A stretch of 63,123 nt of DNA from Candidatus Endomicrobium procryptotermitis. Lineage in GTDB: Bacteria > Elusimicrobiota > Endomicrobiia > Endomicrobiales > Endomicrobiaceae. Both the position numbers and the translations under genes were made by a program. The number at the start of each line of letters is the position of its first letter. Position 1 is the stretch's first letter. Positions 12,265 to 58,076 of this stretch are shown piece by piece. Where the stretch lies: NCBI GenBank assembly GCA_031279415.1, contig JAITIP010000020.1:1-63123 (forward strand), written 5' to 3'. A model generated the notes under the pieces. The model was not told where the DNA came from, ran no database searches, and saw only the letters and a program-made list of their open reading frames with translations.

Positions 12265-12573
12265 ATGAAAATAACCGAAGTCAGAGTATTTCTTAAAAAT
12301 GAAGAAAAACTTAAAGCTTATGCTGTAATTACTTTTGACGGATGTTTTGTCGTACATAATTTGAGAATAGTAAAAGGAAAAAAAGATTTAATGGTATGTA
12401 TGCCGTCGCGAAAGAAGAATGATGGAACATTTAAGGATATAGCACATCCAATTACAAACGATTTCAGAAGCGATTTAGAAAAGTTTGTTCTTAGAGCATA
12501 TGAAGATAAAGTTGAAGAAGCGGGAGTTCAGGTAAAATCTCCTCAGGAAGCAGATCCTGCCGAATCCTCATAG
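12265..12573 (+). CDS. spoVG: SpoVG family RNA/DNA-binding regulator
   Basis: 102 aa. Near full-length match to the SpoVG pattern: MKITEVRVFL, LKAYAVITFD, FVVHNLRIVKG, LMVCMPSRK, FKDIAHPI, and a C-terminal helix. In Firmicutes and spirochaetes SpoVG binds nucleic acids and alters gene expression. The target here is unknown. It has a good GGAGG site (GCGGAGGAGAG) and is followed 44 bp later by tRNA-Gln on the same strand. Confidence 0.95.
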   Translation: MKITEVRVFLKNEEKLKAYAVITFDGCFVVHNLRIVKGKKDLMVCMPSRKKNDGTFKDIAHPITNDFRSDLEKFVLRAYEDKVEEAGVQVKSPQEADPAESS

Positions 12574-12987: not shown

Positions 12988-13587
12988 ATGAAAACATTAA
13001 AATTACAGGACATCTGCACGGACATATTTGCAGGAGCAGCTATTTTTGATAACGACAGACTTTCGCGGGAGTATAAAAATGGAGGATATAGAGTTATCCG
13101 ATTAGCCGATATTCAAAATAATGAAATTTATTTGAAAGATTGTATGTTTTATAATAAAACCGATTACAAGAAGAACCGATACCTTTTGCAAGACAACGAC
13201 ATTTTAATATCTTCCCGCGGAACTATTTTTAAAGTTGCAATTTATGCCAAAGACGGCAATTATAAGACAATCCCGTCGGGCTTCTTAACTTGTATAAGGA
13301 TAAACCCAGAATTAGACATCTCTGTCAATTATGTAGCTGCCTGCTTAAGACATAAAGAAAATAGTATAATATCAAAGTGCAAAACGGTAAAAAATATAGG
13401 CAACAAGAAGCCAAAAATCCAATTAAAACTTGCAGATATTTACAACATAGAAATTCCAATTGCTTCAAATAAAGTTCAAAAAGAAATAGATAAATTGTCG
13501 CAAGAAGTGACAAATTTTTTGAAACAAAGGATTGAAAAAACAAAAAAAATTGAAAATCTGATAAATAATTATCACTTGCAGGAGTAA
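12988..13587 (+). CDS. HsdS-like target-recognition protein (single recognition domain)
   Basis: 199 aa, half the length of a type I specificity subunit. It contains one target-recognition domain (about 1-150; GYRVIRLADIQNN, LLQDNDILISSRGTIFKVA, PSGFLTCIRIN, IQLKLADIYNIEIPI) followed by one coiled-coil arm (about 160-195; VQKEIDKLSQEV ... QRIEKTKKIENLI). Full HsdS proteins have two of each; a half protein would have to dimerise. It lies 4 bp before a short DNA methyltransferase and upstream of a broken restriction-endonuclease-like gene. Being beside a methyltransferase with no visible recognition domain suggests it supplies the DNA specificity in trans (inference). Confidence 0.75.
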   Translation: MKTLKLQDICTDIFAGAAIFDNDRLSREYKNGGYRVIRLADIQNNEIYLKDCMFYNKTDYKKNRYLLQDNDILISSRGTIFKVAIYAKDGNYKTIPSGFLTCIRINPELDISVNYVAACLRHKENSIISKCKTVKNIGNKKPKIQLKLADIYNIEIPIASNKVQKEIDKLSQEVTNFLKQRIEKTKKIENLINNYHLQE

Positions 13588-13591
13588 AATA

Positions 13592-14248
13592 ATGGGAAAT
13601 TTACAACTATATGGCAATGTCGTTAGAAGGATTTATTATGATGATGCTTTGAGATTATCTAAAATCTCAAACAAGGTTCATTGCGCTGATGCTTTATCTT
13701 TTCTTAAAAGAGTGCCTGATAATAGTTTTGATTTAGTTATAACTTCACCACCTTATTTTCAACAACGGGATTATGGCTGCGGCGGTATTGGAAATGAGAC
13801 TACAGAAGACGAATATATAAATAATTTAGTTCTTATATTCAATGAATGTTCGCGTGTTGTTAAACCAACAGGAGCAATAGTTTTTAATTTAGGAGATAAA
13901 TATCTTAACGGCAATTTGTCGTTAATCCCTTTTAGAAGAAACGGATTTACAATAATTAAGATAACAGGAAATGCTATGAAAAAAGATTTAATAGAAAGTC
14001 CTGTTGAAATAACAAAGGGTAATAAGCATACGGCAGTTTATCCGTTATATATAATACAAGAATTAGTAAAATTGTTATCTAATAGCGACGATATTGTATT
14101 AGACCCTTTTTGCGGAAGCGGAACTACTTGTGTTGCCGCTAAAAATCTTGGAAGAAAATATTTAGGGATAGAAATAAACCCTGAATATGTGTCTTTATCA
14201 GAAGAAAGAATAAAAGAAGCAGATAATCACGAGGAGTTTTTTATATGA
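13592..14248 (+). CDS. Short beta-class DNA methyltransferase (N4-cytosine or N6-adenine)
   Basis: 218 aa. Motif order is that of beta-class amino-methyltransferases: catalytic TSPPY at 51-55, then the SAM-binding DPFCGSGTT at 171-179 and GRKYLGIEINPEY. Only about 65 residues separate NLGDKY (about 100) from motif X (AVYPLYIIQELVKLL, about 148-162); relatives usually have a target-recognition domain there, making them 280-400 aa. The recognition domain thus appears absent, either by internal deletion or because the HsdS-like protein encoded 4 bp upstream replaces it. Its stop overlaps the start of the next, broken gene (ATGA). Confidence 0.85.
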   Translation: MGNLQLYGNVVRRIYYDDALRLSKISNKVHCADALSFLKRVPDNSFDLVITSPPYFQQRDYGCGGIGNETTEDEYINNLVLIFNECSRVVKPTGAIVFNLGDKYLNGNLSLIPFRRNGFTIIKITGNAMKKDLIESPVEITKGNKHTAVYPLYIIQELVKLLSNSDDIVLDPFCGSGTTCVAAKNLGRKYLGIEINPEYVSLSEERIKEADNHEEFFI

Positions 14249-47703: not shown

Positions 47704-48003
47704 GTGCGATATAAATTTATTTGTGATGGGCAAGGCTCTGTTGGGTATCATAATTATATGGACAAAGACTTTATAGGTTCTACAACTTTATCTGTAGGAT
47801 ATAATGATAATTTGAACCAGTATAATGGTTTATTTTTAACAGCAGCTTTAGATATGGAACGTCCGAAATATTCGTATGGAAGAAAATACAAGAAAAATTT
47901 GTCAACTGCTAAAATTAAACTTCCTGTAGATAAAAAAAGGGAAACTGATTGGAAGTATATGGAAGATTATATAAAGTCATTGCCATATGCAGATTTGATT
48001 TAA
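47704..48003 (+). pseudogene. C-terminal remnant of an R-M specificity/type IIG protein
   Basis: About 99 codons after a GTG, without a proper N-terminus. The sequence is the last recognition-domain stretch of type I/IIB-type R-M specificity proteins: GSTTLSVGYNDNLNQYNGLFL, KYSYGRKYKKN, and the characteristic ending IKLPVDKKRETDWKYMEDYI, then KSLPYADL. No partner methyltransferase or nuclease is nearby. Some short coding-like fragments follow up to 48180. It is best read as the tail of a deleted R-M gene. Confidence 0.75.
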
Positions 48004-55558: not shown

Positions 55559-55897
55559 AACTCAAACTAAACTATTTTTTGGCCAAAATAATATAATAGA
55601 TTATATACAATTAATCTTCTGCTGCTCTTCATAAATTGCTTTTGTCATTCCATAAATAAGCGCCCATACTATGTATTGCAATAAAAATATATAAGGAGTA
55701 AAGGTATATGCAGCCGTTTTGCATATTATAACAGCCTTTTAGTATAATCTTTTTGAATACGGAAAAGATAGAGATGATATAAGCCGTGTTAGAGGTCGTA
55801 AAATCAGCATATTGTTAACTGTAGGAATGAAAAACCCGTTCCACAGCATGTTGATGACTTTTGCCATTTTAACTTGTGTTTTATTCTAGATATTTTT
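55559..55897. other. Intergenic region containing the left direct repeat
   Basis: About 340 bp. It contains the first copy of a repeat of about 100 bp (55681-55783). On the minus strand there is a hydrophobic run (PYIFLLQYIVWALIYGMTKA ...) ending at a stop near 55601, which might be a remnant of a membrane-protein gene. No complete gene is seen. Confidence 0.4.
55681..55783 (+). repeat. Direct repeat, left copy, flanking the second R-M locus
   Basis: Contains AATATATAAGGA, TATATGCAGCC, TTTTGCATATTATAACAGCC and TTTTAGTATAATCTTT, then AATACGGAAAAGATAGA and GATGATATAAGC. The same order recurs at 57777-57878 with a few substitutions and small indels. The R-M genes lie exactly between the two copies. 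Confidence 0.85.
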
Positions 55898-56967
55898 ATG
55901 TTAAAAAATTTAGAGTGTTTAACTATTAAAAAAGCAAGCCTGCGCACAGCTGATTATACAGGGGAAAAAATTACAACTTCAAACTCCTATATTATTAAAC
56001 ACAGCAGGTCTGACAATGGCTCAACTAAAATCGAAAAATATTTAAGCTCAAAAGATGTGGCTAAGCCTTTTTTAAAGTGGGTAGGAGGCAAAAGGCAGCT
56101 TTTGGAACAGTTAAAAAATTTTTATCCAAAAGAGCTTAAAGACGGAAAGATAAAAAAATATATTGAACCTTTCCTTGGCGGGGGGGGGCAGTGTTTTTTG
56201 AAATTATATCAAAGTATAAAATTGAAAAAGCCTACCTTTCAGACATCAATAAAGATTTGATTTTAACGTATATTGTAATACAACAAAAACCGCATAAACT
56301 TATAGATAAATTAGCGGATTATCAAAAGGATTTTGATAATAAAAATCAAGCAGAGAGACTGAATTTATTTTTAACCGTTAGGAAAGAACTTAACGAAACG
56401 GAAATAAAGATAAACTATAAAAAGCTGACAGACCTATTGATAAAACGGGCGGCTCAATTTATTTTTTTAAATAAAACATGTTTTAACGGTCTTTTTCGGT
56501 TAAATTCAAAAGGTAAGTTTAACGTTCCCTATGGGAAATATAAGACGGCGTCAATTTGTGATGCTGAAAATATCTCAGCGGCATCGCAAAGTTTGAATAA
56601 AGCGGAAATTTATCAGGCATCTTATGGCGAATGTTATCAAAGAATTAACGATGCTGCGTTTGTTTATTTTGATCCGCCGTATAAACCTATATCGAAAACT
56701 GCAAGTTTTACGACTTATACAGGATTTGAATTTGCCGATAAACAACAACAAGAGTTGTCGTTATTTTTTAAGAAGATAGATAAAGAACTTGGAGCAAAAT
56801 TAATGCTTTCTAATTCTAATCCAAACGATGGCTTTTTTCAAAAAATTTATAAAGGATATAATATTTCAAAGGTTTATGCCAACAGATATGTCAATTGCAA
56901 CGGCGATAAACGCGGAAAAATCAGCGAGCTGGTAATAACAAACTATTTGAAAAGTACGATAAAATGA
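55898..56967 (+). pseudogene. Dam-type N6-adenine methyltransferase, out of frame at a G9 tract (possible phase-variable gene)
   Basis: Two overlapping frames together make one alpha-class (D12) DNA adenine methyltransferase of about 355 aa. The first frame (from 55898) holds AKPFLKWVGGKRQLL and YIEPFLGGGG. The second (to 56967) holds FFEI, AYLSDINKDLIL, TCFNGLFRLNSKGKFNVPYG, the catalytic FDPPY, and a normal C-terminus. The break is exactly at nine G (56180-56188). Seven or ten G would rejoin the frames into FLGGGAVFFE or FLGGGGAVFFE. All motifs are otherwise intact, so slipped-strand phase variation is more likely than decay; a sequencing error is the alternative. An N-terminal extension of about 50 residues precedes the usual start of the domain. 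Confidence 0.82.
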
Positions 56968-57728
56968 ATCACAAACCTTGGCAAGCAATTTTTAACAAAT
57001 ATAAAATACAAAAACACGATTTCTCTAAATCGCCTTTTATAATAACGGCAGAGCAAATTAAATCTGCGACAGCGCATTTTAAAACTACTAATGAACGCGA
57101 AGTGCGTGTATTGTGTAAACAAGATACAAGAGAATCTCGTCCTGAAGTATTTGTTGAAAATGACTTATTTTTATTACCAATTAAAAATGGCTCTTATGCC
57201 ATTATACAAGGAGAAGGCTATATTGATATACCTGATATATCAGGCAAAATAAATACTTATAATTCAAAACTTGATTTTGAACTTGAAACGTCTAAAATAG
57301 GCAATTCTGAAATGCAGCATCTTGATTTTGCCTATGCTTCAAGTTTAATTAGAACATTTCTAAAAGACCGCTCGCTTGTATTGACTATTCGCGGTAGAAA
57401 ATATACCCCGTAATTTAAATTTACAGCTGGTAAATTTAATCAAACTATTGTCACTAAAAGTGTCCAAACCGAAGTTGACGCCGGTTATGAAGGTAAAAAT
57501 TCTATCATTTTAATAAAAGCAAAAAATTCTCAAACAAAAAATACAATTATAAGACAATTGTATTATCCGTATCGCCAATGGCAAATTCATACTTCTAAAA
57601 AAGTAAAAGTTTTATTTTTTGAGAAGAGACAAAATATTTATTCTTTATGGGTTTTTGGATTTACAAATCAAAAGGATTATAACAGTATTGTTCTTATTGA
57701 CAGTGCAAAGTATGAGATTATTGAATGA
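56964..57728 (+). pseudogene. Type II restriction endonuclease gene with an in-frame stop
   Basis: It overlaps the methyltransferase stop by 4 bp. The first 149 codons (WQAIFNKYKIQKHDFSKSPF ... LTIRGRKYTP) end at TAA (57411-57413). The same frame then continues for 104 further codons with coding sequence (SVQTEVDAGYEGKNSI, IIRQLYYPYRQW, KKVKVLFFEK) to TGA at 57726-57728. The TAA is probably a changed GAA. The protein would be about 254 aa. The nuclease-like segment reads DAGYEG ... ILIKAKN; the family would be expected to have Glu-x-Lys there, so a catalytic acid may also be lost. No specific recognition sequence can be given. Confidence 0.75.
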
Positions 57729-58076
57729 ATATTTTAAGGATAAACTGATTAAATAAAAAATTGCCGACTATTCTGTAATAGAAATATATAAGGAATAAAA
57801 GTATATGCAGCCAGTTTTGCATATTATAACAGCCTTTTAGTATAATCTTTAAATACGGAAAAGATAGATGATATAAGCATCGCGTTAAATATTGTAAGTT
57901 TAACATATCGTTTATCAACAGCTAATGGAAAAAGTAATTCTTGTCGGGGTTTATAAAAAATGCAGACAAAGCAGGAGGTTTTAACTTCACTTGCGAATTG
58001 GAACGACTGTGTAGTACTGACGGAATAATAAGAGTTAAAATTGTTATAATGTTAAAAATTTAGAAAACGGGAAAAT
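57729..58076. other. Intergenic region with right direct repeat and a possible hflX remnant
   Basis: About 350 bp. After the right repeat copy there is an ATG at 57925 reading MEKVILVGVYKKC and, after a one-base shift, TKQEVLTSLANW, ending near 58028. This is reminiscent of the N-terminus of the GTPase HflX, but it is short and out of frame. A minus-strand hydrophobic ORF (57718-57918) lies across the repeat and is not convincing. Confidence 0.35.
57777..57878 (+). repeat. Direct repeat, right copy, flanking the second R-M locus
   Basis: Second copy of the repeat at 55681-55783, starting 49 bp after the restriction gene. The conserved blocks are in the same order, with small indels (for example one extra A after GCAGCC and three fewer T before AATACGG). 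Confidence 0.85.

Follow-up and report, generated by a model that had tools for sequence, protein, structure and literature searches.

A possible mutable OFF allele of a Dam-type methyltransferase in a putatively restriction-dead type II unit of Candidatus Endomicrobium procryptotermitis

Does a homopolymer that breaks the reading frame of a DNA methyltransferase gene mark a switch, a gene in decay or an error of assembly? The question is raised by a tract of nine Gs (G9) in a 63,123-nt stretch of DNA from Candidatus Endomicrobium procryptotermitis, analyzed here at its full length and referred to as the window. The original prediction placed the tract inside the conserved E-P-F-L-G-G-G motif of a Dam-type (D12) methyltransferase gene, with the gene out of frame, and proposed a candidate phase-variable switch. 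Sequence and frame comparison bear out the location and the broken frame. The proposal of a switch stands only in part: poly-G tracts in restriction-modification (R-M) and sugar genes across the genome speak for it, and a premature stop in the partner endonuclease, the recent insertion of the unit and a tract in a degenerate gene fragment speak against it.

The broken gene is a predicted N6-adenine methyltransferase of the DpnM/Dam type (D12). The two pieces together cover the D12/Dam-family profile TIGR00571 end to end, the second taking up where the first leaves off (Table 1), and the 3′ piece alone scores above the curated cut-off of this profile (205.6 vs 114.85 bits). The best solved structural relative is DpnM (2dpm). 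The start of the gene is ambiguous, either the ATG at 55898 or a later GTG directly before AKPFLKW. In an alignment of 28 homologues, nearly all near-invariant residues were retained outside the tract and a variable SNSD loop. The statement that every methyltransferase motif is present therefore needs a qualification at this loop, which is short and reads SNSN in place of the usual SNSD(P). The missing aspartate of SNSD, together with a five-residue gap, was considered here as a second lesion and rejected as such, because relatives with SNSN and short loops exist. To judge from the alignment, such near-complete retention would be unexpected for a long-dead relic and counts against reading the gene as one.

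Table 1. Features of the methyltransferase-endonuclease unit and its flanks, in window coordinates.
Feature	Position	Strand	Basis
Left direct repeat flanking the R-M unit	55677..55816	+	84.6% identity over 143 aligned columns to 57774-57912
Methyltransferase 5′ part, D12/DpnM-type	55898..56179	+	PF02086 1-32, TIGR00571 2-43, alignment
G9 homopolymer in FLGGG motif, breaks frame	56180..56188	+	sequence
Methyltransferase 3′ part, other frame, 258 aa, DPPY intact	56191..56967	+	TIGR00571 44-267, E=1.1e-60; 2dpm E=2.1e-38
Type II endonuclease 5′ part (PF22515/PF22518), ends at in-frame TAA 57411-57413	56964..57413	+	profile matches; intact homologues read through
Endonuclease 3′ part, open past the stop	57414..57728	+	PF22518 73-174/175, E=2.8e-34; PADLOC REase_II
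Right direct repeat flanking the R-M unit	57774..57912	+	alignment to left copy

The frames that enter and leave the tract are mismatched, the former belonging to an ORF at 55874-56260 and the latter to the 3′ ORF of Table 1, so that no single uninterrupted frame for a D12/Dam-family methyltransferase is present. Upstream of the break, the first frame encodes the N-terminal portion, PFLKWVGGKRQLL...YIEPFLG; downstream, the other frame runs from VFFE through the C terminus. The product of the G9 allele terminates about 24 codons past the tract, and the downstream ORF is without the cofactor-binding motif. Both the Pfam D12 profile and TIGR00571 match the two pieces in register. The arithmetic of the original prediction, by which seven or ten Gs would restore the frame, is correct. 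No other G/C run in the window is as long, and the tract shares one feature with the simple sequence repeats (SSRs) that mediate phase variation: it is an intragenic G/C tract of at least 7-8 whose length sets the frame (cut-offs taken from PMC6321876). Among the homologues with a readable FLGGG motif, none carried a run of more than six Gs at this position (maximum 6), and the G9 is therefore peculiar to this genome.

Directly downstream, and overlapping the methyltransferase gene by 4 bases, lies an endonuclease gene of the DUF6996/DUF6997 family (PADLOC call REase_II). It aligns over its full length with intact homologues, at up to ~75-77% identity. Intact endonucleases sit beside the equivalent methyltransferase in other phyla, with examples from Cytophagales, Fibrimonadaceae, Spirochaetales and others, and the adjacent M-R pair, as expected of type II systems, recurs in roughly ten genomes from other groups. 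The intact endonuclease of a type II R-M system is missing here owing to the in-frame TAA; homologues L047 and L062-L065 are intact. The premature stop would leave the unit unable to restrict, and the unit is thus predicted to be restriction-dead.

The R-M unit lies between direct repeats of about 140 bp that are 2.1 kb apart, ~85% identical and share an exact 37-nt match (55716-55752 and 57814-57850). It is missing from G002, the closest relative that was found. The genes that flank the unit are 79-82% identical there but are divided between contigs: acpS comes right after glmS, and the FlxJ-family methyltransferase gene is on a different contig. In the genome of the window, glmS is located on contig C36 and adjoins a different R-M pair (EcoRI-type methylase/HNH). 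An exact match of 42 bp joins the start region of the methyltransferase gene (55904-55945) to contig C36 (L185 3560-3601), where the copy is located just after this EcoRI-type pair beside glmS. Together with the acpS/glmS adjacency in the relative, the 42-bp match marks a rearrangement. The direct repeats and the absence from G002 point to a recent insertion at or near the rearrangement point, and we regard the unit as probably acquired horizontally. This agrees with Zheng et al. (2016), as cited in PMC11257099, by whom R-M systems have been implicated in genome rearrangement in this lineage. Two other R-M remnants occur in the window: a lone specificity half with a short DNA methylase (TSPPY) at 12988-14248, and a specificity-subunit remnant, from the C-terminal end, at 47704-48003 next to a malate/lactate dehydrogenase-like gene.

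Long G-runs are overrepresented in this genome. Pattern searches, with a block at the end of contig C24 counted once, recovered ten sites of at least nine Gs in 2.0 Mb, against ~0.2-1.2 expected from Markov models of order 1-4 trained on the window and scaled to the whole genome. An order-5 expectation (9.8 runs) was discarded, as the training data of this model included the G8 and G9 of the window itself. The methyltransferase G9 is the shortest of the ten, with far longer runs in other DNA-modification genes and in surface-sugar genes, and four of the ten are near contig ends. One of the latter, the C24 block of 133 nearly pure G bases, was set aside as artefact-like. Tracts in or beside sugar-metabolism or surface genes were found on contigs C2, C7 and C24, and also in genomes G014 and G009. 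The surface-polysaccharide contigs C2 (L180, both ends), C7 (L179 end) and C24 (L181 end) terminate at poly-G/C or within about 100 bases of it, as if the assembly breaks there, and their end tracts touch epimerase and membrane-protein genes. On contig C36, a G10 stands a few bases upstream of the start codon of feoA (L156 1499-1508), possibly as a variable leader. Another G10 occurs on contig C1, inside a short remnant of an evidently truncated nucleotidyltransferase gene, which shows that tracts arise in dead genes too. In the congeners G004 and G002, tracts are mostly in frame within large ORFs or beside gene starts and so are not by themselves proof of switching. In genome G014, a recurrent intergenic motif, approximately AGGGATACA(C/T)TTATA-C(n)-GAATATTTTTCGG, surrounds a C9-C13 tract (L161, L159, L166), and a G11 puts a spoVG-like gene out of frame (L167 1571-1581); this gene is intact in the window (12265-12573).

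The closest counterparts of the G9 elsewhere in the genome lie in specificity genes. A G17 on contig C28 (14528-14544; L155 1502-1518) and a G14 on contig C37 (65703-65716; L157 1502-1515) each split a BcgI-like specificity gene exactly between its two target-recognition domains. In both operons the specificity gene follows a gene for a fused restriction-methylation protein (N6_Mtase, 680 and 640 aa), the N-terminal part of which, from its length and the gene layout, presumably acts as the nuclease, as in BcgI. Methylase_S (PF01420) matches both halves at C37 and only the 3′ half at C28, where the 5′ half has no Pfam match, resembles specificity subunits and comes after the restriction-methylation gene. 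At both loci, two of the three phases reach a TAA within a few codons past the tract, and the remaining phase links both domains. This is the layout known from NgoAV, in which a tract that separates recognition domains 1 and 2 decides whether a half subunit or a fused one is made. At C37 the second half has, in the phase now present, an ATG of its own that overlaps the tract, and both halves could be made separately. The target of a half subunit is expected to be symmetric and that of a fused subunit split. A third related operon, on contig C4, has an intact specificity gene free of tracts. A search for invertible repeats near convergent specificity-domain matches on contig C37 (114.6-115.5 kb) found none. 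A similar arrangement occurs in a family-mate: in G008 (contig C203, L317 4361-5640), a type I hsdS gene is put out of frame by a run of 14 C at its recognition-domain junction and adjoins a tract-free paralogous hsdS that reads NPR there. From these sequences, it is credible that R-M genes of this genome vary by poly-G. Tracts of at least 14 Gs at recognition-domain junctions suggest that the R-M tracts here are not all products of decay, which counts against reading the G9 as a mere relic.

We give about an even chance to the reading that the window holds a slippage-inactivated, potentially revertible methyltransferase within a restriction-dead, acquired type II unit, in other words a mutable OFF allele and not a demonstrated switch. 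The G-run would have grown from the three glycine codons of the cofactor-binding motif by synonymous drift, as a Campylobacter study has proposed for the genesis of tracts, from three glycine codons to nine Gs (PMC6321876). A run of this length may then have slipped, turning the methyltransferase OFF by slipped-strand change. With a nonsense codon in the endonuclease gene, an OFF methyltransferase would be harmless and the OFF allele could spread; the G9 would be long enough to slip back, and reversion may be possible. In an ordinary type II system, loss of the methyltransferase in the presence of a working nuclease is lethal, and by the established logic of such systems a nonsense mutation in R lifts the penalty of losing M. 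With the nuclease dead, the OFF allele would thus be tolerated, which fits a mutable relic as well as a maintained on/off methyltransferase. The two other R-M remnants of the window and the G10 in the nucleotidyltransferase fragment on C1 speak for the relic. The sequence shows the tract, the frame break, the nonsense codon, the insertion and a protein that is otherwise intact. That the frame was broken by slippage, the obvious candidate, is what we infer, as are the sequence of events and the capacity for reversion.

Against this mutable OFF allele stands the possibility that the gene is a maintained, phase-variable orphan methyltransferase, with the G-tract toggling methylation, and perhaps expression, across the population, a reading that we find plausible but on the whole doubtful. 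The excess of long G-runs speaks for it, as do the tracts between the recognition domains of two specificity genes and of the G008 hsdS, those in or beside surface-sugar genes, and the otherwise intact methyltransferase. It gains from the recurrence of tracts in the R-M genes of this genome and family. In Campylobacter, moreover, tracts are most often G9 or G10 in length, and those of at least eight vary in strain NCTC 11168 (PMC6321876). On the other side, the G9 is the shortest of its set and sits in a natural Gly-Gly-Gly motif, the partner endonuclease gene is broken, and the tract is found in no relative with a readable motif. A relic is slightly favored over a switch since the unit is young and foreign, has already lost one gene and carries the shortest of the tracts.

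The remaining explanations concern the G9 allele itself. An assembly or sequencing error, with a true tract that is in frame and a methyltransferase that is on, could be suspected from the artefact-like poly-G at the end of C24 and from the four sites near contig ends, but we consider it improbable. The tract lies deep within a 63-kb contig and is short enough to be spanned by ordinary short reads. Furthermore, a scan of the window placed 21 homopolymers besides the G9, which are most of the others in the window, within intact ORFs, making a general homopolymer error in the assembly unlikely. Programmed ribosomal or transcriptional slippage, by which some full-length enzyme would be made from the G9 allele, seems to us more improbable still: a long G-run is a possible slip site for polymerase or ribosome, but the tract is conserved in none of the homologues with a readable motif.

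The wider meaning depends on which of these readings is right. If the G9 tract switches, it would represent a phase-variable methyltransferase of a nuclease-dead type II unit, in a genome that also has two candidate poly-G switches of specificity; for this phylum, our search found no report of phase variation. A full-text search for Elusimicrobia together with phase variation returned papers with passing mentions only, and a 2024 paper on Endomicrobia genomes mentions neither phase variation nor homopolymers (PMC11257099). Cells of one gut symbiont population would then differ in their methylation patterns. If the tract is a relic only, it would show how a dying R-M unit comes to break first at a glycine-rich motif. 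We entertain, with somewhat short of even confidence, the broader view that the lineage runs multi-locus poly-G/C switching over its DNA-modification genes: the 14-17-base tracts of BcgI-like and type I specificity genes would switch between half and fused subunits, the G9 would add an on/off state, and together with the surface-sugar tracts these would form a phasome like that of Campylobacter, but in symbionts that are uncultured and non-pathogenic. Taken alone the locus in the window is of moderate interest, and the putative poly-G specificity switches on contigs C28 and C37 are the part worth pursuing.

The gene is closely comparable with the D12 enzymes M.DpnM and Dam (TIGR00571; 2dpm), with which it shares the fold, the motif order, the DPPY and FxGG motifs and a type II endonuclease partner; its reading frame, unlike theirs, is interrupted by the G9 within the cofactor-binding motif. 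The comparison with pathogens made in the original prediction does not transfer directly, as the organism appears to be a gut bacterium of the Endomicrobiaceae type. The Campylobacter phasome likewise consists of G/C tracts of at least eight in R-M and surface-sugar genes, in a genome that is also AT-rich, but switching there is documented by longitudinal isolates (PMC6321876), whereas the locus in the window is known from the sequence of one assembly. Type III mod phasevarions also carry a frameshift tract in the methyltransferase gene (PMC13076061); the unit in the window differs in being type II with a separate enzyme. Methyltransferases that turn on and off are mostly type III, and type II examples are limited (PMC13076061). 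A close parallel to the specificity genes on C28 and C37 is hsdS of NgoAV in Neisseria gonorrhoeae, with poly-G between its recognition domains, where two half genes become one when a single G is lost, with a change of target (PMC9577141). In contrast to NgoAV, the tract in the window belongs to a type II unit of an unrelated phylum and lies in the methyltransferase itself, where it would set an on/off state and not specificity.
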